DNA of 21,683 nucleotides from a virus. Shown here piece after piece: positions 3,132 to 21,578 of this stretch. Each line of letters begins with the position of its first letter. Positions within the stretch are counted from its first letter, which is position 1. A program made the translations under genes and the position numbers. The notes under the pieces are model-generated. The model was not told where the DNA came from. It did no database searches and was given only the letters and a program-made list of their open reading frames with translations. The stretch spans positions 1 to 21,683 of the IMG/VR virus record IMGVR_UViG_3300020317_000016; one strand, given 5' to 3'.

Positions 3132-3815
3132 ATGAAAGCAGTTTTAAAAGCATACACGCAAGTACATGAATCGCCAGCCTTGGGTGATCTACAAGAATTT
3201 GTCGCATATTGCGCTAGGGTATCAAATCCTTCAAATCAAATCAATAGTGCTACTAGCGAAAAACTTCTACAATATCTGATCAAACATAAGCATTGGTCAC
3301 CGCTAGAAATGGTATCTGCTACAATGGAGATTGAAGCCACAAGAGATATTGCCCGACAACTCTTGCGGCATAGGTCATTCTCATTTCAAGAGTTTTCTCA
3401 GAGATATGCTAATGTTGATGAATTTGGCGATAATATGTTTGAACTTTGTGAAGCAAGACTTCAAGATACTAAAAATAGACAGAATAGTATAGAAACAGAT
3501 GATGCTGATTTACAATCTGCATGGTATATAATGCAACAAGAGGTGATTGATAAGGTTGAAGAAGCATATCTTTGGGCGATTGGTAATGGTATAGCCAAAG
3601 AGCAAGCAAGAAAAGTTTTGCCAGAAGGTCTTACAATGTCGCGTCTGTATGTCAATGGAACGCTAAGATCGTGGATTCATTACATTGAATTGAGAAGTGC
3701 AAATGGAACTCAAAAAGAACATAGAGAATTAGCCATACAATGTGGAAAAGCAATTTCTTTAATATTTCCACTGGCAAGTGACTTTTTTAACGAAATAGAT
3801 TTATACCCAACATAA
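3132..3815 (+). CDS. thyX: Flavin-dependent thymidylate synthase ThyX
   Basis: ThyX converts dUMP to dTMP using FAD, NADPH and methylene-tetrahydrofolate, supplying dTMP for phage DNA synthesis independently of ThyA. The diagnostic RHRX7S motif is complete: Arg79-His80-Arg81 and Ser89, followed by QRY (residues 90-92). The N-terminal 'SPLEMVSATMEIEATRDIARQLLRH' and the C-terminal 'TLRSWIHYIELRS' segment are also family-typical. The 227-aa length is normal for the family. A good ribosome-binding site (AAAGGA) precedes the ATG. No feature suggests inactivation. Confidence 0.95.
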   Translation: MKAVLKAYTQVHESPALGDLQEFVAYCARVSNPSNQINSATSEKLLQYLIKHKHWSPLEMVSATMEIEATRDIARQLLRHRSFSFQEFSQRYANVDEFGDNMFELCEARLQDTKNRQNSIETDDADLQSAWYIMQQEVIDKVEEAYLWAIGNGIAKEQARKVLPEGLTMSRLYVNGTLRSWIHYIELRSANGTQKEHRELAIQCGKAISLIFPLASDFFNEIDLYPT

Positions 3816-4128: not shown

Positions 4129-4734
4129 ATGAAGCGTATAACAACTATCGGAATATTAGCAGTTAATTGTGCTATTGCCGCTGGTATTGGCTATGCTGTT
4201 TTTGAAGCAAAAAAGCAAGTATCTGATACTACTGAGGCAGTAGAACAACTAGCAGAAGAAAGAGCAAATGAAATTGCAGAAGAACATGCAATTGAACTTG
4301 CTTATCAAGCAGAACAAGTAAAACAAGTACAGTGTTTGGCAACAAACATATATTACGAAACTATGGCATCTTCTTTGGCTGATGCCATGGCTGTTACGGA
4401 TGTGGTTCTCAATAGAGTAGCACATGAAAAATATCCAAGCACACCGTGTGAGGTTGTTCATCAATCTTATCTAAACGATAAGGGTGTACCATTACTCAAT
4501 AAATGTCAATTCAGTTGGTATTGTGATGGTAAGGCAGATGAACCACAGAATGAAAATTCTTGGACAAAATCTGTTGATCACGCTGTTGCAATGTATAGTG
4601 GTGGAGATTGGCGTGGATTAACTGAAGGTTCAACACACTATCACGCAACATATGTTTCTCCATCATGGGCTAAAGAATTCACTAAAATAGTTCAGATTGG
4701 CGCACATATTTTTTATCGCATGGAAGATAAATGA
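4129..4734 (+). CDS. SleB-type cell-wall hydrolase (endolysin) with N-terminal membrane anchor
   Basis: This is a peptidoglycan hydrolase of the Hydrolase_2/SleB family (lytic transglycosylase-like), probably the phage endolysin. Residues ~1-25 form a hydrophobic segment with few polar residues, followed by an acidic helical linker (~30-65) and the catalytic domain. 'CLATNIYYE' carries the expected catalytic Glu77. Then come 'VVLNRV', 'CQFSWYCDG' and 'THYHATYVSPSWA', all hallmarks of the family. An N-terminal membrane segment on a lysis enzyme fits a signal-arrest-release (SAR) endolysin, though a plain membrane anchor or uncleaved signal is possible. It has its own promoter, and its stop overlaps the next start. 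The small membrane genes downstream are candidate holin and spanin partners. Confidence 0.85.
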   Translation: MKRITTIGILAVNCAIAAGIGYAVFEAKKQVSDTTEAVEQLAEERANEIAEEHAIELAYQAEQVKQVQCLATNIYYETMASSLADAMAVTDVVLNRVAHEKYPSTPCEVVHQSYLNDKGVPLLNKCQFSWYCDGKADEPQNENSWTKSVDHAVAMYSGGDWRGLTEGSTHYHATYVSPSWAKEFTKIVQIGAHIFYRMEDK

Positions 4735-5303
4735 ATATATTTATTTTAGATAATGACCCTACTATTGCTGCAAAATTGCAATGTGACAAGCACGTTGTAA
4801 AGATGATTGTGGAGAGCGCACAAATGCTCTCCACGGCACATCGTATGTTGGATGGTGATCAAGAGTTGCGTCCTTCTAAGTCTGGAAAAAGAATGGTTAA
4901 ATATTGGGTCTTGCCAGATAGTCGTGAAAATGTTATATATAAAGCAGTGCATATGGGTCATCCATGTACTGTTTGGACTATGAAGAATGATAACAACTAC
5001 AATTGGCATTATAATCATTTTGTTGCCCTTTGCAGAGAATATACATATCGGTATGGTAAAGTACATGCCACAGAAAAATTACTAAAAGAACCATTATCAA
5101 AACCACCTAAAAATATAAAATCAGGTTACAAATACTTGATGAGTCCATTCGCACTTGCTATGCAACATGAACCACAATGTATAAATGAGAGTGACCCAAT
5201 AAAATCATATCAAGACTACTACAACACGAAACAGAAAAATTTTAAGATGGTTTGGACAAAACGACAAATACCCGAATGGTTTAAGGAAAATATTAATGAG
5301 TGA
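4731..5303 (+). CDS. Conserved-looking phage protein of unknown function
   Basis: This 190-residue protein begins 'MNIFILDNDPTIAAKLQCDK', followed by 'HVVKMIVESAQMLSTAHR', and later has 'HPCTVWTMKNDNNYNWHYNH'. The pattern recalls an uncharacterised family that I associate with marine phages. It is rich in His, Trp and Tyr. The clustered His, Cys and Asp residues (D-P...CDKH...SAQML.TAH) could be a metal or catalytic site, but I cannot name a reaction. Some such proteins may be labelled DNA glycosylase-like; I see no DenV motif and do not adopt that. It overlaps the endolysin stop by 4 nt and the next gene by 8 nt. Confidence 0.75.
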   Translation: MNIFILDNDPTIAAKLQCDKHVVKMIVESAQMLSTAHRMLDGDQELRPSKSGKRMVKYWVLPDSRENVIYKAVHMGHPCTVWTMKNDNNYNWHYNHFVALCREYTYRYGKVHATEKLLKEPLSKPPKNIKSGYKYLMSPFALAMQHEPQCINESDPIKSYQDYYNTKQKNFKMVWTKRQIPEWFKENINE

Positions 5304-5953: not shown

Positions 5954-6153
5954 TGAGTAAAGAAATAAAAGATGCGGCACAACAACAAGCAGAGCAAGCG
6001 TTTGATGGTTTTATGTTATGGATGAAAAGAGGCGCATATATATCTGTAGCGATATTATTGTTTGTAGTGGTTGGTTGTAATTCTGGGGTTGACACTGATG
6101 CATATCCAGCATATAATGGTGAACAATATGATCCTCAAGGTATGAGTGAATAA
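5953..6153 (+). CDS. Small lipoprotein-like membrane protein
   Basis: The ATG at 5953 overlaps the preceding stop; a TTG at 5941 in the same frame is disfavoured. Residues 1-25 are polar, then comes a hydrophobic stretch ending in a lipobox-like 'VVVGC' with Cys42, and a short acidic tail. Starting at the internal Met24 gives a classical lipoprotein signal (MKRGAYISVAILLFVVVGC). A small outer-membrane lipoprotein near an endolysin is what an o-spanin looks like, but the tail is short (~24 residues) and the role is inference. Confidence 0.6.
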   Translation: MSKEIKDAAQQQAEQAFDGFMLWMKRGAYISVAILLFVVVGCNSGVDTDAYPAYNGEQYDPQGMSE

Positions 6154-6392
6154 TGGTAAAGCCTAACTTAGATAATTGGAAATTAAACTTAGAAGATATT
6201 CATTGGATTGAAAATTCTCTTAGTTACAGACTACAAAGATTGACAATGAAAAGACTTACTGTAAAAAAACAAAGCAGTAAAGATAATATAGACAATGAAA
6301 TAAAACATATAACAGAACTACAAGGAAAAATGTTTAACCAAAAAGAATGGCGCAGAGCAAAAGTAGGTAATACACCTTATATAAGTGGATAG
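6153..6392 (+). CDS. Small basic protein of unknown function
   Basis: This is a 79-residue, lysine-rich, helical protein with no membrane segment, not recognised. Its start overlaps the previous stop (TAATG). The helix-rich 'NSLSYRLQRLTMKRLTVKKQ' portion suggests a short coiled coil. It lies just upstream of the phosphoribosyltransferase gene. Confidence 0.6.
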   Translation: MVKPNLDNWKLNLEDIHWIENSLSYRLQRLTMKRLTVKKQSSKDNIDNEIKHITELQGKMFNQKEWRRAKVGNTPYISG

Positions 6393-6401
6393 GAAAATTA
6401 G

Positions 6402-6848
6402 ATGATTACTAGTGGAATGTCTTTAGGTAATAATGAACCCTCAGAGCAAATAGATTTATTTCAACAGCAGAAATTTACTTCTCATGCTGGAATCCCTATG
6501 ACATGGAAAATTGAAATGGATGCCATATCAGACAAAGAGTGGGATTGTCTAGCAGCAATGATTATGGATCATCAAAAAGAGCCTTTTTCAAAAGTTGTCG
6601 GTATTCCCAGAGGTGGAGTAAAATTACAAAATGCACTCAGAAAATATTCTGAGTGGGAAGCAAAACATCCATGGTTGGTAGTTGATGATGTATATACAAC
6701 TGGTACATCTTTTAGAGAATTTTGCACCACAAAGGAAACAATGTTTGCATATAAGTGGGTGGTGTTTGCAAGACAACCTACAGATAAAGATAGCGGTGTA
6801 AGAGCATTATTTACAATGCCAGAAAAATTTGAGCATCCGGGTTATTAA
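6402..6848 (+). CDS. Type I phosphoribosyltransferase-fold protein
   Basis: The PRPP-binding signature is clear: 'WLVVDDVYTTGTSF' with Asp95-Asp96 and Thr99-Thr100-Gly101-Thr102, as in orotate and purine phosphoribosyltransferases. 'FSKVVGIPRGGVKLQNAL' corresponds to the substrate/PPi-loop region ('GIPRGG'). At 148 aa it is shorter than typical OPRTs and lacks a clear hood domain, so the base substrate is not determinable. It may act on PRPP in purine or pyrimidine supply, or be a PRTase-fold regulator. Its stop overlaps the purS start by one base, which supports a nucleotide-synthesis role. Confidence 0.8.
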   Translation: MITSGMSLGNNEPSEQIDLFQQQKFTSHAGIPMTWKIEMDAISDKEWDCLAAMIMDHQKEPFSKVVGIPRGGVKLQNALRKYSEWEAKHPWLVVDDVYTTGTSFREFCTTKETMFAYKWVVFARQPTDKDSGVRALFTMPEKFEHPGY

Positions 6849-7078
6849 TGAGATATAAAGCAATGATATGTATTCGTAGAGGAATACTTGATAACGCTGG
6901 ACAAACAGTAACTTATGCGTTACAATCATTGGGCTGGCCCGAAGTGCAAGATGTGAGGATAGATAAGGTGATTGAATTTGATTTAGAAGAAAGCGATTGG
7001 CAAAAAGCAGAAGCAATCGCAAAATCTCAAACTAATGAAGTTATGGAATATTATGAGTTGGAAGAAGTAAAATGCTAA
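6848..7078 (+). CDS. purS: PurS, small subunit of FGAM synthase
   Basis: PurS is the ~80-residue subunit that bridges PurL and PurQ in phosphoribosylformylglycinamidine synthase (step 4 of purine synthesis). The 76-aa protein shows the family's pattern: a beta-strand, then 'RGILDNAGQTVTYALQSLGW', then 'VQDVRIDKVIEFDLE' and a helix ending 'NEVMEYYELEEV'. No purL or purQ is seen in the window, so it would act on the host complex or on genes elsewhere in the phage. It overlaps the PRTase stop by one base and the following P-loop gene by 7 nt. Confidence 0.88.
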   Translation: MRYKAMICIRRGILDNAGQTVTYALQSLGWPEVQDVRIDKVIEFDLEESDWQKAEAIAKSQTNEVMEYYELEEVKC

Positions 7079-7650
7079 AGCCAAAATTATTAGTCATTGG
7101 ACATGGCAGACATGGAAAAGATACTGTATCTGAAATACTATGTAATGAGTTTAAATTAAGTTTTATTTCCAGCAGTATGTTTGCTTGCAAAAAGTTCATC
7201 TATAATGACTTAAAAGATAAGTATGAATACAAATCAATTGAAGAATGTTACGATGACAGGCATAATCACAGATCAGAATGGTATAATGCGATTGCAGAAT
7301 ATTGTGAAAATGATCCTTCTCAATTAGGTAAAGATATATTTTCTGAGCATGATATATATTGTGGTCTTAGAAATGTTAGAGAATTTACAGAAATGAAAAA
7401 GCAAAAAGTATTTGATGCTTGTATTTGGGTAGATAGATCACACCATTTACCCCCAGAGAATAGCCTTAGTATGACACTCATGCCAAACATGGCTGGATAT
7501 ATCATAGATAATAATAAATCTTTAGAAGATTTAGAGTTTGAAGTTAAGAAAACTTACAATGAGATACTTCGCGAGATGAAGTATCCAAGCCAACACAAAT
7601 CTTCTAATAGTTTTGATTACAATCATGTATCAGGCTATGCAAATGGTTAA
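7072..7650 (+). CDS. P-loop kinase, dNMP-kinase-like
   Basis: This 192-residue protein has a P-loop 'VIGHGRHGKDTVSEIL' (Walker A GxxxxGKD/T) near residues 8-23. It continues with 'SSSMFACKKFIYNDLKDKY', 'DRHNHRSEWYNAI', 'DIYCGLRNVREF' and 'ACIWVDRS', which resemble the deoxynucleoside monophosphate kinase family (T4 gp1-like) common in marine phages. The likely reaction is phosphorylation of dNMPs to dNDPs for phage DNA synthesis; the exact nucleotide is not shown by the sequence. It is in the overlapping PRTase-purS cluster. Confidence 0.75.
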   Translation: MLKPKLLVIGHGRHGKDTVSEILCNEFKLSFISSSMFACKKFIYNDLKDKYEYKSIEECYDDRHNHRSEWYNAIAEYCENDPSQLGKDIFSEHDIYCGLRNVREFTEMKKQKVFDACIWVDRSHHLPPENSLSMTLMPNMAGYIIDNNKSLEDLEFEVKKTYNEILREMKYPSQHKSSNSFDYNHVSGYANG

Positions 7651-7882
7651 TTATAATTGCTCAGTTGATGATATGGGTCCAGAAGAAATAAAGGAAGCAA
7701 ATCGTTTAATGTGGGCAGTTAAAGGTATGTTGATTCCAGATGGTTATTCTATAAAAGATGTACATGCAGTACTCAATGGATATTTTAAAAGGGTTTGGTC
7801 TAATTGTAACCCTATGCAGTTTGAAGGTTTTGAAGATGCTTGGGTAAAGAATGGTGAAAGAAAAACAAATCTATATAAATAG
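7643..7882 (+). CDS. Small protein of unknown function
   Basis: This encodes a 79-residue soluble protein. The ATG at 7643 is preferred because it overlaps the previous stop by 8 nt; ATGs at 7625 and 7637 and a TTG at 7613 lie further inside the upstream gene. Features are 'MGPEEIKEANRLMWAVKGML' and 'GYFKRVWSNCNPMQFEGF', with no recognised motif. Its last codons overlap the late promoter at 7874. Confidence 0.6.
   Translation: MVNYNCSVDDMGPEEIKEANRLMWAVKGMLIPDGYSIKDVHAVLNGYFKRVWSNCNPMQFEGFEDAWVKNGERKTNLYK
7874..7881 (+). promoter_or_regulatory. T4-type late promoter (TATAAATA)
   Basis: This is an exact TATAAATA 31 nt upstream of the first tail-like gene, with no -35 hexamer. In T4-like phages this box is recognised by RNA polymerase carrying the phage late sigma factor gp55 with the gp45 clamp. 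It overlaps the stop of the preceding gene and marks the start of the structural block. Confidence 0.75.
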
Positions 7883-11955: not shown

Positions 11956-11989
11956 TCTGTTAAAAAGGTCAATAAAAACTATTTCTCTA

Positions 11990-12018
11990 TTGACAAGAAT
12001 CAAAATTTATGATATAAA
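11990..12018 (+). promoter_or_regulatory. Sigma70-type promoter for tmRNA, overlapping a TATAAATA late box
   Basis: TTGACA at 11990-11995, a 17-nt spacer and TATAAA at 12013-12018 make a near-perfect sigma70 promoter. The -10 continues as TATAAATA (12013-12020), the T4-type late box. Host polymerase early and late-modified polymerase late could both read it. The expected transcription start is about 12025, shortly before the acceptor RNA. Confidence 0.75.
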
Positions 12019-12029
12019 TAAAAATGTAG

Positions 12030-12087
12030 TTGATGATATCAACTTGATGCATACTGGACCGTGGGGCAGTACCACGCATCTCCACCA
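12030..12087 (+). ncRNA. ssrA: tmRNA acceptor piece
   Basis: This piece contains the P2 strand (12037-12043), a T-arm-like hairpin with stem CGTGG (12060-12064) and CCACG (12072-12076) around a 7-nt loop GGCAGTA, the acceptor-stem strand CATCTCC (12077-12083), discriminator A12084 and CCA at 12085-12087. The 5' end is uncertain. Bases 12029-12043 can also fold on themselves (GTTGAT/ATCAAC), an alternative to the P2 pairing. Confidence 0.87.
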
Positions 12088-12102
12088 TAAGGATACTAAA
12101 GA

Positions 12103-12291
12103 ATGGAAATTATTTGGCAAATACTACTCACAGTTTGTTCTGGATCAACTTGTTTAGAGCAAGATGTGCAACAGTTTGAGACTAAATTGAAGTGTGAAAC
12201 TATGCTCATAGAATATACAGAATTACCAAATGATGGTCATTGGGATACAGTTAAATATATCTGTAAACCTTTAGGTTCAGTTTCTTTATGA
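12103..12291 (+). CDS. 62-aa protein nested in the tmRNA intervening segment
   Basis: This ORF fills the spacer removed from the permuted tmRNA. It begins 15 nt after the acceptor CCA and its TGA ends 1 nt before the first G of the coding piece. The sequence AAGGAT (12089-12094) serves as ribosome-binding site, 8 nt before the ATG. The protein has a hydrophobic start ('MEIIWQILLTVC'), four cysteines (12, 17, 31, 54) and an ending 'DTVKYICKPLGSVSL'. The Cys spacing suggests two disulfides in an exported small domain, but there is no recognised family. Transcription is shared with the tmRNA. Whether it is translated from the precursor or from the excised spacer is open. Confidence 0.7.
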   Translation: MEIIWQILLTVCSGSTCLEQDVQQFETKLKCETMLIEYTELPNDGHWDTVKYICKPLGSVSL

Positions 12292-12292
12292 T

Positions 12293-12475
12293 GGGGATGA
12301 AATAGGATAGACAGGTGTTGATAGGAAAATGGAGACTTCCCCGTACTTAGCTGGGTTAACGCGAAGAAAATACTAAATGCAAACGATAATTTTGCACCTT
12401 CTGGTTACGCACTCGCTGCATAATTAAGGGGGTTGGTCACTTACCTAGCAACAGAAAAGTGACACTATATCACAT
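12293..12475 (+). ncRNA. ssrA: tmRNA coding piece with tag reading frame
   Basis: This begins GGGGATG (acceptor strand), then a D-arm-like segment and the P2 strand (12317-12323). CTTC (12336-12339) and GAAG (12363-12366), with CCC/GGG in between, fit pseudoknot 1. The resume codon is GCA at 12379; the frame reads ANDNFAPSGYALAA and stops at TAA (12421-12423), giving the tag AANDNFAPSGYALAA with the alanine from charging. A downstream stem GTCACTT/AAGTGAC (12436-12442/12457-12463) follows. The 3' end is near 12465-12480. Confidence 0.88.
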
Positions 12476-12481
12476 TTTATT

Positions 12482-12512
12482 AAGAGGAAGAGTTAATCAC
12501 TCTTCCTTTTTT
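12482..12512 (+). terminator. Intrinsic terminator after tmRNA
   Basis: A perfect 9-bp stem, AGGAAGAGT (12485-12493) with ACTCTTCCT (12499-12507), has a 5-nt loop and is followed by a run of T to 12512. The A's before the stem also pair with the T's. It ends the tmRNA transcript just before the next late promoter. Confidence 0.9.
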
Positions 12513-12515
12513 GTA

Positions 12516-12549: not shown

Positions 12550-13125
12550 ATGTTTAGAAAATTATTGAGTATTTTATGTATTGTTATGGTATTTGGATTT
12601 ACACAAATGCTTTTTGCTCAGACCGTAGTAGAAACTACAACTGATAGCAATAGTAGAGTTAATTCTGAAGGAAGAACAATTGTAATATCGCCACCACCTT
12701 CTGCAATTTCTCCTAGTGCGGGAGGAAGTTCTCAAGACCTTTGCACAGTTGGTATTTCTGGTGCTGTTCAGACTCAAATACTTGGCATTTCTACTGGCGA
12801 AACTGTAACAGATCAAAACTGTGAAAGACTTAAAATTTCAAAAACACTCTATGATATGGGTATGAAAGTTGCTGCTGTTTCTGTAATGTGTCAAGATAAA
12901 AGAGTATTTGATGCAATGGGTATGGCAGGAACACCTTGCCCATATGAAGGTAAAATTGGTGAAGAAGCAAAAGAAGCATGGAAAACTTGGAGTGGTAAGA
13001 AAAAAGTTCCTATAGAGTTTAACCCGGAGACAAAGGCAGATGTTCAAAAAAGGCAATGGGAAACTGGTAGATCAGTTATTAGTGGTGCTTTGTTGTTTGT
13101 ACTTCTTTTGGTCGCTGCCAACTAA
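12550..13125 (+). CDS. Exported protein with signal peptide and C-terminal membrane segment
   Basis: This is a 191-residue protein. Residues 1-23 are a signal peptide (MFRKLLSILCIVMVFGFTQMLFAQ, cleavage probably after FAQ or LFA). A Ser/Pro-rich stretch ('TIVISPPPSAISPSAGGSSQ') is followed by a compact region with four cysteines, and the C-terminus is a single membrane helix ('ISGALLFVLLLVAAN'). It is expressed from a late promoter. Similar proteins in marine phages are called structural or unknown; the function is not established here. Its last 86 nt also encode the signal peptide of the next gene in another frame. Confidence 0.75.
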   Translation: MFRKLLSILCIVMVFGFTQMLFAQTVVETTTDSNSRVNSEGRTIVISPPPSAISPSAGGSSQDLCTVGISGAVQTQILGISTGETVTDQNCERLKISKTLYDMGMKVAAVSVMCQDKRVFDAMGMAGTPCPYEGKIGEEAKEAWKTWSGKKKVPIEFNPETKADVQKRQWETGRSVISGALLFVLLLVAAN

Positions 13126-14959
13126 CGCTACAACAGAAAGTATAACAGTTGATAGTGGAGTAACTACCACTATACCAGAAATCGTAGATTTAAGTGGTGG
13201 TACAATAACTAATGGTACTTGTGTAGGTGGTTCATCTCATTTGAATCTATTGTCTGGTAGTAGTGAAGCATGGAGTGGTTCACCAACTTTGCAATGGGGA
13301 GCATGTTCTGATACGTTTGCAATGACTATGGCAATAAATGAAGTATTATCAGATGCTGGTACAGGCATAAGTTTAGATAAAATTCATTATCGTTGGAAAT
13401 GGATTAATGGTTGTTTCAATATAACAAAAGCAAATGGTGATAAAGTATGGTGTTCAACAGATATTGAGAACCGACTTGATGGAAATATGAAACCCACTGG
13501 AGAATATGCAGATCAGTTTGATGCTCTTAATATTGTGATAGAGATTACTGACAGTAATGGAACTATTATAGAAACAAAAACTTACGATTATGATACTTGG
13601 TATCATTGGAGTGAATCAAATTCTCATAGTACAAATGAAACCACAGATGGTGAAGGTGCTGTTTGGCAAATAACCGAAGATCATATAGAACTTTTTAATC
13701 ATATCACTGGTACTGGAACAATATACACTCCAAATCAATTGGGAAATATTAGTTTTGTTGCCAATGCACAAGATAATGGACAGTGGGAAGGATACTATGG
13801 TCCTGTTGCAAGAGATGGTGAAATGTGGTTTACATATCGCAATAATCCATGTGATTTAGATACTCTATATAATCCATCGTGTATTGGTTACGCTGAAGCG
13901 TATGCGACACACCTTTATGATCAGTCATGTATTGCAGACTCTTTATATGATATTGGCTGTCCAAATTATGTGACCGCATATCAAGACCAACAATGTAAGA
14001 TTAATCCATTGTATAGTGTTCAATGTCCTAATTATCAAACGGCATATTTCAATCAGCAATGTGATGTTGATCCGCAATATGATATTGGTTGTCCTAACTA
14101 CTCTGTACCTACTGTCATGGAAGAAATTGTGGTAACTGATCCTGTTGCAGAAATTATTAATCCAAATATAACGATAACCGAAACTATACCAGAAATTGTT
14201 ATGCCAGAAATCAATGTAACCGAAGAAATTGTTGTACCACAAATTGATATAGTTTCTCAAATAGCACCAGTAGAAGAAATTACCACTCAATCTATTGAAA
14301 TAGAACTCGCAGCAATGGAGGCAGAATTAAATGAGCAAATCGTTGAAACAACAGTTGCTGAACCAGACTCAGGAGAAACCTCTGAAGAAAGAGGAAATAC
14401 CACAGACCAAGAAACCGAGAAACCCAAGCCAGAGAAAAACAACAAATCTAAGTCCGACTCTGATGGAAAAGGTGAAGAATCATCCGATGATGAACCGAGC
14501 GAGTCCAAGGACGATGGTGGAAAAGAAAAAGACACTGGGGAAAATACTGGCTCTGAGGATGGTAATGGAAAGGATAAAGAGGTAGATGCTGACGAAGCCG
14601 TTGAATCTGAAAAAGATGTTGTTAGACCTAAGAAAAAAGAAGAAAACTCATCCCCCACAGAAGCAGAAAAAAAGAATTCTAGGAAAGAAAAGATAAGAAG
14701 ATTGATTGCAGATAAAGTAAACAGTCTTACTAAGAAAGTTGAAGAGGCATCAACTTTAGAAGAACAAGTGGCAGTACAGTCACAATTAGCAGCACTAATT
14801 GCATTTGTACCAGATTTTGATTATGGAGATATGGAAGTACCAGATATTTATTTTTATCCACCAGTGCCGACAGTAGATCATGCATTTTCAAGATGGTTCG
14901 TGAATGACCCGACATTTGGGATAATGGAGGATTTACAATATCCAAGTTTAAGGCAGTAA
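13040..14959 (+). CDS. Large secreted/virion-type protein with Cys repeats and acidic region
   Basis: This 639-residue protein starts inside the previous gene. The start at 13040 is supported by an upstream AAAGG and by a good signal peptide (residues ~1-32, '...LLVVLCCLYFFWSLPTNA'). Residues ~33-270 form a beta-rich domain. Residues ~271-356 hold four units of a Cys repeat (C-x9-C followed by 'PNY..AY..QQ'). A Pro/Glu/Val-rich hinge leads into a charged low-complexity region (~431-551, D/E/K/S/G). After it comes a helical coiled-coil-like segment (~551-595) and a Pro/Tyr-rich end. The function is unknown; late transcription and architecture suggest a virion or periplasm-acting protein. Confidence 0.75.
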   Translation: MFKKGNGKLVDQLLVVLCCLYFFWSLPTNATTESITVDSGVTTTIPEIVDLSGGTITNGTCVGGSSHLNLLSGSSEAWSGSPTLQWGACSDTFAMTMAINEVLSDAGTGISLDKIHYRWKWINGCFNITKANGDKVWCSTDIENRLDGNMKPTGEYADQFDALNIVIEITDSNGTIIETKTYDYDTWYHWSESNSHSTNETTDGEGAVWQITEDHIELFNHITGTGTIYTPNQLGNISFVANAQDNGQWEGYYGPVARDGEMWFTYRNNPCDLDTLYNPSCIGYAEAYATHLYDQSCIADSLYDIGCPNYVTAYQDQQCKINPLYSVQCPNYQTAYFNQQCDVDPQYDIGCPNYSVPTVMEEIVVTDPVAEIINPNITITETIPEIVMPEINVTEEIVVPQIDIVSQIAPVEEITTQSIEIELAAMEAELNEQIVETTVAEPDSGETSEERGNTTDQETEKPKPEKNNKSKSDSDGKGEESSDDEPSESKDDGGKEKDTGENTGSEDGNGKDKEVDADEAVESEKDVVRPKKKEENSSPTEAEKKNSRKEKIRRLIADKVNSLTKKVEEASTLEEQVAVQSQLAALIAFVPDFDYGDMEVPDIYFYPPVPTVDHAFSRWFVNDPTFGIMEDLQYPSLRQ

Positions 14960-20244: not shown

Positions 20245-20459
20245 TTGACCTGCTAGGCTAGTTACCTAGATAGTCCTGGAGTTGTACTCTGACGAAGTGA
20301 ACCGTCTAACTGAACGGAAACAAAGCACGATCACAAGTAGTGCGGCATTGAGATTGCCGATAGAAGATAAGCAGTGAGAGAGGTCTACTCCATTAGAACT
20401 AGACCTTCAAGGAGAGACACTTTCACAAGCTGAGTACTCGGCGGTAAAGTGTGATTTTT
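20245..20459 (+). ncRNA. Putative structured non-coding RNA
   Basis: Together with the flanking bases to 20582, this is the longest stretch without a protein gene in the window. A promoter-like TTGACC (20245-20250) and TAGATA (20267-20272, 16-nt spacer) start it, and a hairpin with T-run ends it. Between are local stems: CTAGG/CCTAG near 20254-20269, GGAGT/ACTCT (20278-20282/20286-20290), CCGT/ACGG (20302-20305/20314-20317), CGGCA/TGCCG (20343-20347/20355-20359) and AGGTCTA/TAGACCT (20381-20387/20400-20406). It is GC-richer than its surroundings and has no good ORF. No known RNA family is recognised; tRNA and tmRNA are excluded by lack of their features. Confidence 0.5.
20417..20459 (+). terminator. 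Terminator-like hairpin ending the putative ncRNA
   Basis: ACACTTT (20417-20423) pairs with AAAGTGT (20446-20452), enclosing a second stem GCTGA/TCGGC (20429-20433/20438-20442) with a GTAC loop. A T-run (20455-20459) follows. Confidence 0.55.
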
Positions 20460-20506
20460 GTTTGCTCAATGATACTGTTTATCTTCTCTCACATTTCACA
20501 AAACTG

Positions 20507-20536
20507 TTACACGAATTTCAGTAATTTTCATATAAA
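20507..20536 (+). promoter_or_regulatory. Possible promoter for permease gene
   Basis: TTACAC (20507-20512), 18 nt, TATAAA (20531-20536, continuing as TATAAATT). It may be a weak sigma70 promoter or an imperfect late box. No other candidate is seen in the 120 nt before the gene. Confidence 0.35.
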
Positions 20537-20582
20537 TTGCAATGTTAAATCAATACTTAAAACCTCAAAAAAGGAGAGTATA

Positions 20583-21578
20583 ATGGAAGTTATGAGTATC
20601 TGGATGCTGATCGGATTTCTATTCGCGGCATATGCGGTTATCGCAAACGATTCAGTTCAAACATTGGGAACATGGATTGCATCAAATAATGAGAGATTTA
20701 GTTGGCAGACTATGTGGATTGCAGCATCGTCTGTTTTGTTGTGGGCATTATGGTATGGGTGGTATTATAATGGTGGTGATATTAGTTATGGGAGATTAAA
20801 CAAAATACCATGGCAAGAGATACAGTGGTATCACGCTTGCGCTCCTGGCGTCTTATTGCTATTAACAAGGTTTGGTGTACCAGTAAGCACATCATTTCTT
20901 GTTCTTTCGGCATTCGCTTCATCGTTTGTATTAGAGAAAATGTTGATGAAATCCATGTTAGGTTATGCAGTTGCAGCGATTGCGGCATATGCTATATGGA
21001 TGATAGTAAGCAGATTGCTTGATGAGGCGAAACCTGTAAAAGAAAATCATAAGAACTATTGGCGTGTTGGTCAATGGATAACAACTGGATTCCTATGGTG
21101 GACTTGGTTATCTCATGATATGGCAAACATTGCCGTTTTTCTTCCAAGGGAATTGTCGGTTGAATTGATGATTATGATATCTGTTGTGTTTGTTGCTGGT
21201 CTTGGCTTTATGCTAAGAGAGGGTGGTGGTAAAATTCAACAGATTGTTTTATCAAAGCATAACACTCGCTATGTCAGATCAGCAACAATTATTGATTTGG
21301 TTTACTTCTTAATTCTATATTTCTTTAAGGAATTGAATGATATTCCAATGTCAACCACATGGGTCTTTGTTGGACTGTTATGTGGGCGAGAACTTGCTAT
21401 GGCGACAGTAACTGGTAAGGAGAAGTTTAAAGTAGTATTTCCATTGATTGGCAAAGACTTCCTTAAAATGATGGTTGGGCTTGCGGCATCACTCGCTATT
21501 GTTCTTTCAATTCATTATGTGATTGTACCTCTTGAAGATGCTCAGAAAGAGATTGGGGTTGAGAATATATCTCAATAG
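20583..21578 (+). CDS. PiT-like inorganic phosphate permease
   Basis: This 331-residue multi-pass membrane protein resembles the PiT/PHO4 family of cation-coupled phosphate transporters. The family's internally repeated 'ND..(N)..G' motif appears as 'IANDSVQTLGTW' (Asn22-Asp23) and as 'SHDMANIAVFLP' (Asp179, Asn182) in the second half. 'FGVPVSTSFLVL' (from Phe97) matches the family's 'G.P.STTH' segment. About nine hydrophobic segments are visible. The second motif has His-Asp rather than Asn-Asp. The start at 20583 is chosen because AAAGGAG precedes it; the same frame extends to 20451, but that part runs into the ncRNA terminator and is not protein-like. The gene would raise phosphate uptake during infection. 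Function is inferred from motifs. Confidence 0.65.
   Translation: MEVMSIWMLIGFLFAAYAVIANDSVQTLGTWIASNNERFSWQTMWIAASSVLLWALWYGWYYNGGDISYGRLNKIPWQEIQWYHACAPGVLLLLTRFGVPVSTSFLVLSAFASSFVLEKMLMKSMLGYAVAAIAAYAIWMIVSRLLDEAKPVKENHKNYWRVGQWITTGFLWWTWLSHDMANIAVFLPRELSVELMIMISVVFVAGLGFMLREGGGKIQQIVLSKHNTRYVRSATIIDLVYFLILYFFKELNDIPMSTTWVFVGLLCGRELAMATVTGKEKFKVVFPLIGKDFLKMMVGLAASLAIVLSIHYVIVPLEDAQKEIGVENISQ

Follow-up and report, generated by a model that had tools for sequence, protein, structure and literature searches.

Results

A cluster of three overlapping genes in a marine virus record

The window, by which we mean the whole stretch of DNA analysed, comprises the entire IMG/VR virus record IMGVR_UViG_3300020317_000016 and is 21,683 bases long. 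On its plus strand lie three overlapping genes that encode a compact PRTase-fold protein of 148 amino acids (positions 6402-6848), a PurS-family protein of 76 amino acids belonging to a clade with the motif LDNAG (6848-7078), and a P-loop dNMP-kinase-like protein of 192 amino acids (7072-7650). The first junction reads TAATG, with an overlap of 1 nt, and the second ATGCTAA, with an overlap of 7 nt; coordinates and junctions are thus as the initial annotation had given them. Upstream on the same strand is thyX (3132-3815), encoding an FAD-dependent thymidylate synthase (TIGR02170, 151.8 bits against a cut-off of 87.9; PF02511), a gene that is also found near PurS in related records.

Two small plus-strand reading frames of unassigned function flank the cluster. 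The one immediately upstream (6153-6392, 79 amino acids) is conserved with the cluster, its relatives preceding the PRTase-fold gene in many related loci and directly following PurS in two (L013 and L014), and it matched no family above cut-off in Pfam or the other family profiles searched. The one directly 3' of the kinase gene (7613-7882, with an ATG start at 7643) has relatives in the same position in several loci and no convincing match in Pfam, PHROGs or other profiles.

The product of the third gene matched phrog_139, deoxynucleoside monophosphate kinase (E 3.6e-9), and phrog_38514 (1.3e-44), and its translation contains the P-loop GHGRHGKDT. A tblastn search with this protein matched 35 phage records, one of them annotated as a dNMP kinase (45.3%). 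Because the Pfam DNMK model PF21448 was matched in the P-loop region only and did not reach its cut-off (16.5 against 27.1 bits), we refer to the protein as dNMP-kinase-like.

Profile searches identified two T4-like genes in the window, a UvsX-type recombinase (C-terminal part) and a DnaB-like helicase, and the window also carries, besides thyX, genes for a large protein of virion type and for a hydrolase resembling endolysins. The helicase has its best match in phage C48C1 (69.1%), with mostly cyanophages next in the list. The best explanation is that the source is an uncultured marine T4-like tailed phage and that the cluster is part of its nucleotide-supply operon. The 21.7-kb record is probably a fragment of a phage genome that, judged against its relatives, would be several times longer. 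No DNA match to the cluster was found among isolate phages.

The viral PurS proteins form a separate clade

PurS is a non-catalytic subunit of the split form of FGAM synthase. The window protein exceeds the cut-offs of Pfam PF02700 (E 7.4e-14; 52.1 bits, cut-off 22.2) and TIGR00302 (48.5 bits, cut-off 39) and falls under that of the stricter NF004630 (50.5 bits, cut-off 75), and we therefore class it as a diverged PurS-family member rather than a canonical equivalog. At E <= 1, a profile built from 13 relatives matched eight different sequences of solved structure; B. subtilis PurS (1t4a) came first at 8.3e-13, and the T. maritima complex 3d54 was matched through its PurS at 2.6e-4. The initial annotation of the 76-amino-acid protein as PurS thus holds by PF02700 and TIGR00302 and by the match to PurS sequences in the PDB.

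Pattern searches of viral contigs yielded 36 PurS loci and later 76, which include those 36. The LDNAG patterns returned 76 PurS relatives among 130 pattern matches and the cell-type patterns 2 among 29, a comparison that is only indicative because each search was limited to its own short patterns. One of the two contigs with a cell-type PurS (LDPQG; L259, 173-415) has neighbouring genes that look phage-like by eye.

In a phylogenetic tree, 20 representatives of the viral PurS proteins formed one clade (support 100/99), apart from 11 cellular sequences and from three cyanophage-type PurS that made up a clade of their own (100/100); the tree is small, with 7 of 31 inner branches well supported. 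Descent from an alphaproteobacterial purS, for which such a phylogeny had been proposed as a check, was not seen in this small tree, since the five alphaproteobacterial sequences do not enclose the viral clade; they require two changes in the tree even among themselves.

Two features of the protein accompany this separation. LDNAG is present in all 45 unique full-length PurS of the viral clade, a count that owes something to the search patterns, which favoured this motif, and that omits the truncated L037; nine of the 11 sampled cellular PurS have LDPQG, and the other two RDPRG and LNPEG. The motif lies 45-49 from a conserved Asn in the viral clade, and 51-55 from it in the PurS of the 11 cellular sequences and of two cyanophages; unlike LDNAG, this shorter spacing does not stem from the patterns used in the search. 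The Gly and Asn positions themselves are invariant in an alignment of 33 PurS sequences. The PurS of cellular split FGAM synthases (1t4a, 3d54 and the alphaproteobacterial purC-purS-purQ arrangement) share family and, by profile, fold with the viral proteins and differ from them in having mostly LDPQG, a longer segment before the Asn and another gene context.

Searches of isolate phages by tblastn with the window PurS gave no match at 1e-5. Up to E 10, nine records were matched (four Listeria, two Staphylococcus, two Pseudomonas and one Erwinia), and the PurS of loci L091 and L086 matched five and six records, respectively; we read the Listeria, Staphylococcus and Enterococcus matches as putative host DNA inside those records. 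These queries missed the PurS of the cyanophages P-SSM2 and Syn33 in the same collection, so the searches exclude close relatives only. Within that limit, no close relative of the viral clade was found among 50,697 phage records. A description of the clade was likewise not found in the available parts of a limited literature set (PMC9983427, PMC9004378, PMC3815217, PMC3261824, PMC9599517, PMC5083919, PMC7029224). Judged from these alignments and searches, the viral PurS is a separate, little-known clade whose protein itself differs from known phage PurS.

PurL and PurQ were not found in the PurS-bearing records

The initial annotation had regarded the phage as supplying PurS alone. This description agrees with what we found in the window and the 76 other PurS-bearing virus records, most of which are fragments: the AIRS_C domain (PurL/PurM) and the GATase_5 domain (PurQ) were each found in none of the 77, in searches for which 14 of 14 control genomes were positive in each case. 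The 77 records total 1.68 Mb; 20 are at least 30 kb long and three exceed 90 kb. Since the window covers 21.7 kb of what is probably a much longer genome and most related records are likewise partial, the phage might encode its own PurL and PurQ elsewhere. We consider this very improbable. If genomes of 150 kb had one extra gene at a random position, about 11 matches would be expected where none was observed, a rough figure because the records are related, and the three longest records (96-117 kb) contain neither a PurL/PurM nor a PurQ domain.

Solitary PurS genes are found in known phages as well. Among nine phage records searched with PF02700, PurS was present in three (P-SSM2, Syn33 and AG-345-O18) and not in P-HM2, S-SM1, S-SSM7, HTVC008M, C48C1 or P-TIM68. 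The same three had one AIRS_C match each; that of P-SSM2 is its annotated purM, and the match frames in Syn33 and AG-345-O18 contain stop codons. P-SSM2 and Syn33, whose genomes are complete, have PurS, as the window record does, and lack PurQ, and neither appears to encode a PurL with catalytic domains. PurS without PurL and PurQ therefore already exists in known phages; the arrangement is not new, and what differs is the protein variant. The cyanophages are T4-like marine phages too, P-SSM2 with an annotated purM in addition, and their PurS form the separate clade described above, with a cell-like length of 54-55 before the Asn and without LDNAG.

These cyanophage genes (PSSM2_173 in P-SSM2, L174 4051-4374; Syn33_151 in Syn33, L175 3004-3282) are annotated purL, 5-phosphoribosylformylglycinamide amidotransferase, and phrog_1282 is described in the same words, a label that hides the presence of the small subunit only. 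PMC9983427 lists purS among the host genes of cyanophages. Other isolated purine-pathway genes are known from phages, namely purM in pelagiphages and GMP reductase (PMC9599517 and PMC7029224); both encode catalytic enzymes, in contrast to the PurS subunit.

The overlapping upstream gene encodes a compact PRTase-fold protein

Taken alone, the window protein matched PF00156 below threshold (E 0.013), and 49 of 55 aligned family members matched it at E <= 0.1 (best 5.3e-5). A structure predicted from the 55 sequences (pLDDT 87.5, pTM 0.79) matched orotate PRTases (2yzk_C, Foldseek E 2.2e-6; 2yzk_A, Z 11.6 over 127 residues at 3.4 A); an earlier model from 19 sequences was discarded (pLDDT 53.6). 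Across the family the GIPRGG and DDVYTTGTSF regions, the latter represented in the window by VVDDVYTTGTSF, are almost invariant, and G67, P69, G71, G72, D95, D96, T99, T100 and G101 are wholly so. The 55 sequences therefore combine a PRPP motif containing two adjacent acidic residues with a pyrophosphate loop, as type I PRTases do, and the predicted core fold is of that type. Orotate, adenine and xanthine-guanine PRTases share with the family this predicted fold, the PRPP motif and a pyrophosphate loop like GIPRGG.

The type I enzymes compared differ in having a longer spacing between the motifs. The GG-to-DD distance is 23-24 in all 55 sequences against 45 in 2yzk, and the RG-to-DD distance is 25 in the PRTase-fold protein against 60 in the adenine PRTase of a related phage. 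In type I PRTases, a flexible loop between the pyrophosphate loop and the PRPP motif closes the active site. As this loop is missing here, we use the name PRTase-fold protein. The PRPP handling that the initial annotation had ascribed to the cluster is thus unproven as catalysis, the inter-motif stretch of the compared enzymes being missing.

Contigs of marine viruses frequently encode a relative of the protein (291 stretches). Isolate phages gave no match at 1e-5, and the PRTase profile (A2) found none in the nine phage records, including P-SSM2 and Syn33, in a search run without a positive control. Within 3 kb of the PRTase-fold gene in 80 distinct contigs, we found PurS in 21, GMP reductase in 15, adenine PRTase in 8, a PF00860 permease in 7 and a PnrA-like protein in 7, each neighbour family being identified from one representative and extended by similarity to it. 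At least one of these five purine genes is present at 45 of the 80 loci and none at 35. In a permutation analysis, the last four families formed 25 pairs within 1 kb, where placing the genes randomly in those loci gave 15.4, so that the apparent excess of purine genes near the PRTase-fold gene is modest, suggestive but not strong.

Individual members of these families include an adenine PRTase (L053, 10410-10931) that exceeds the NF002636 cut-off and lies near the PRTase-fold gene in a related phage, a PF00860 nucleobase permease (L107, 2282-3574) with a relative 61 bp from the PRTase-fold gene in L132, and a PnrA-like binding protein (L123, 1900-2997), again near the PRTase-fold gene of a related phage. 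A QueE-like protein within 3 kb at 10 of the 80 loci fell far below its family cut-offs and was not used.

Gene neighbourhoods and selection

Neighbours of PurS were counted in the 76 other records as raw record counts, uncorrected for relatedness; a set of 47 loci with both genes was discarded because several were one contig under different locus ids. Of the 76 records, 30 have the PRTase-fold gene immediately before PurS, overlapping it in 29 and separated by 1 nt in L032 when the first possible start codons are used, an adjacency that exceeds chance. The two proteins might form a complex of their own, independent of PurL and PurQ, as the overlap in those 29 records and the occurrence of both genes in reverse order, 362 bp apart, in L057 and L058 would suggest. 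We judge this very unlikely, because within the stretches covered the PRTase-fold gene was not seen in 44 of the 76 PurS records and 59 of the 80 PRTase-fold loci lack PurS. The pairing is thus confined to part of the PurS clade.

Other neighbours of PurS vary among lineages. The dNMP-kinase-like gene follows PurS within 13 nt in 9 of the 76 records; GMP reductase lies downstream in 11, one of them with a partial gene; and nrdB, together with glutaredoxin, lies within 3 kb in 14, of which 13 also have nrdA. Relatives of the permease encoded at 20451-21578 of the window are within 263 bp of PurS in eight records, abutting it in L035, L036 and L059-L062 and standing about 263 bp away in L013 and L014. 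These varied nucleotide contexts across lineages argue for a role of PurS in nucleotide supply. Neighbours without an evident tie to nucleotides also occur, such as ClpP, which comes directly after PurS in L010 (10230-10820), and in L013 (8795-9901) a UV endonuclease resembling UvdE, which stands just ahead of PurS.

The GMP reductase of L019 (4250-5365) exceeds two equivalog cut-offs; it and its relatives lie 3' of the PRTase-fold gene and PurS. Annotated GMP reductases occur in the isolate phages XacN1, RAS14 and Cr30. In AT-rich phages the enzyme could serve to shift GMP through IMP to AMP.

Both proteins are under purifying selection. The dN/dS ratio of PurS is 0.055-0.132 in six of seven pairs, the seventh being saturated, and that of the PRTase-fold protein is 0.031-0.281 in five of five pairs. 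PurS could in principle be a passenger gene without effect; its low dN/dS and its presence across diverged lineages make this extremely improbable.

A proposed role for the phage PurS

We propose, with moderate confidence, that the phage PurS joins the FGAM synthase of the host as one of its subunits and is encoded in a nucleotide-supply operon. With PurL and PurQ not found in the 77 records, most of them fragments, PurS would act on the host complex, the host's PurL and PurQ being the simplest working partners. Such economy is also seen in the complete cyanophage genomes. The phage protein would enter the split host enzyme, composed of small PurL, PurQ and PurS, and there, in the infected cell, support the fourth step of purine synthesis de novo, presumably raising flux through the pathway; the large catalytic subunits would then not need to be phage-encoded. 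Homologues of the split enzyme are inefficient without PurS (PMC3815217 and PMC3261824). For the PRTase-fold protein, whose gene overlaps PurS, the probable role is to bind PRPP and to act in purine salvage or nucleotide sensing, and the P-loop protein, together with the upstream ThyX, probably contributes by phosphorylating deoxynucleoside monophosphates. We presume that the cluster is transcribed as a single operon.

The LDNAG motif and the shorter segment before the conserved Asn mean that the fit of the phage protein into the host complex is not assured; these changes may raise affinity, allow escape from regulation or block the enzyme. As far as sequence goes, the phage protein may tune or replace the host subunit, the two options named in the initial annotation, or boost it. 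It could also displace the host PurS and alter, uncouple or block FGAM synthase, perhaps saving glutamine and ATP or diverting purines into salvage. The clade-wide change of LDPQG and the shortened segment would accord with such a regulator or decoy, as would the fact that related phages carry salvage genes (adenine PRTase, PF00860 permease, GMP reductase) close to the PRTase-fold gene. In several lineages, however, PurS stands beside the supply genes nrdA, nrdB, thyX and the dNMP kinase gene, suggesting that more nucleotides are wanted, and no inhibitory feature could be identified in the phage protein; we therefore hold a regulator or decoy to be unlikely.

Should the phage PurS enter the host complex as proposed, a lytic phage would be steering a multi-subunit biosynthetic enzyme via the smallest of its components. 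This would be an inexpensive way of taking over metabolism, and one that the purL labels in cyanophages would have masked. A more far-reaching version, which we put forward tentatively and regard as doubtful, is that the widespread viral PurS clade evolved as a dedicated handle on FGAM synthase that takes over or re-sets the host complex, and that in some of its members it is coupled in translation to a loop-less, PRPP-binding PRTase-fold protein reporting PRPP or purine status. The clade signature makes viral PurS searchable, and the loci described here point to purine gene sets in uncultured marine phages that comprise PurS, GMP reductase, adenine PRTase, a nucleobase permease and the PRTase-fold protein.

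A permuted tmRNA gene and other features of the window

At positions 11986-12514 the plus strand carries a tmRNA gene that is permuted (in two pieces) and of alphaproteobacterial type; its tag is ANDNFAPSGYALAA, and a 62-amino-acid reading frame (12103-12291) lies within its intervening segment. SAR11 myophages and the OM43 phage Melnitz are known to have permuted tmRNA genes (PMC9004378). The type of the window tmRNA is a weak hint of a host group that has PurS as a separate protein. When genome contigs were scanned for the tag-coding pattern, a single locus emerged, L095, from a metagenome-assembled genome that bears the label Muricauda; its tmRNA matches that of the window at 74% in a stretch of 143 bases and at 77% in one of 44 bases. 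A translated comparison of the window with the 8-kb locus matched only at the tmRNA, PurS is not present in that genome, and we assigned no host.

Several other plus-strand reading frames of the window were examined. The product of 4731-5303 strongly matched phrog_624, 'DNA binding protein' (7.5e-57), and, below threshold, also matched Pfam Pyr_excise (pyrimidine dimer DNA glycosylase). Reading frames 12550-13125 and 13040-14959 share an 86-nt overlap, and the longer of them (639 amino acids) matched nothing in PHROGs at 0.001 or in Pfam at 0.01. The product of 20451-21578, which had no Pfam match at 0.01, is a phosphate-permease-like membrane protein with a weak match to the solved phosphate transporter 6l85 (E 0.011).
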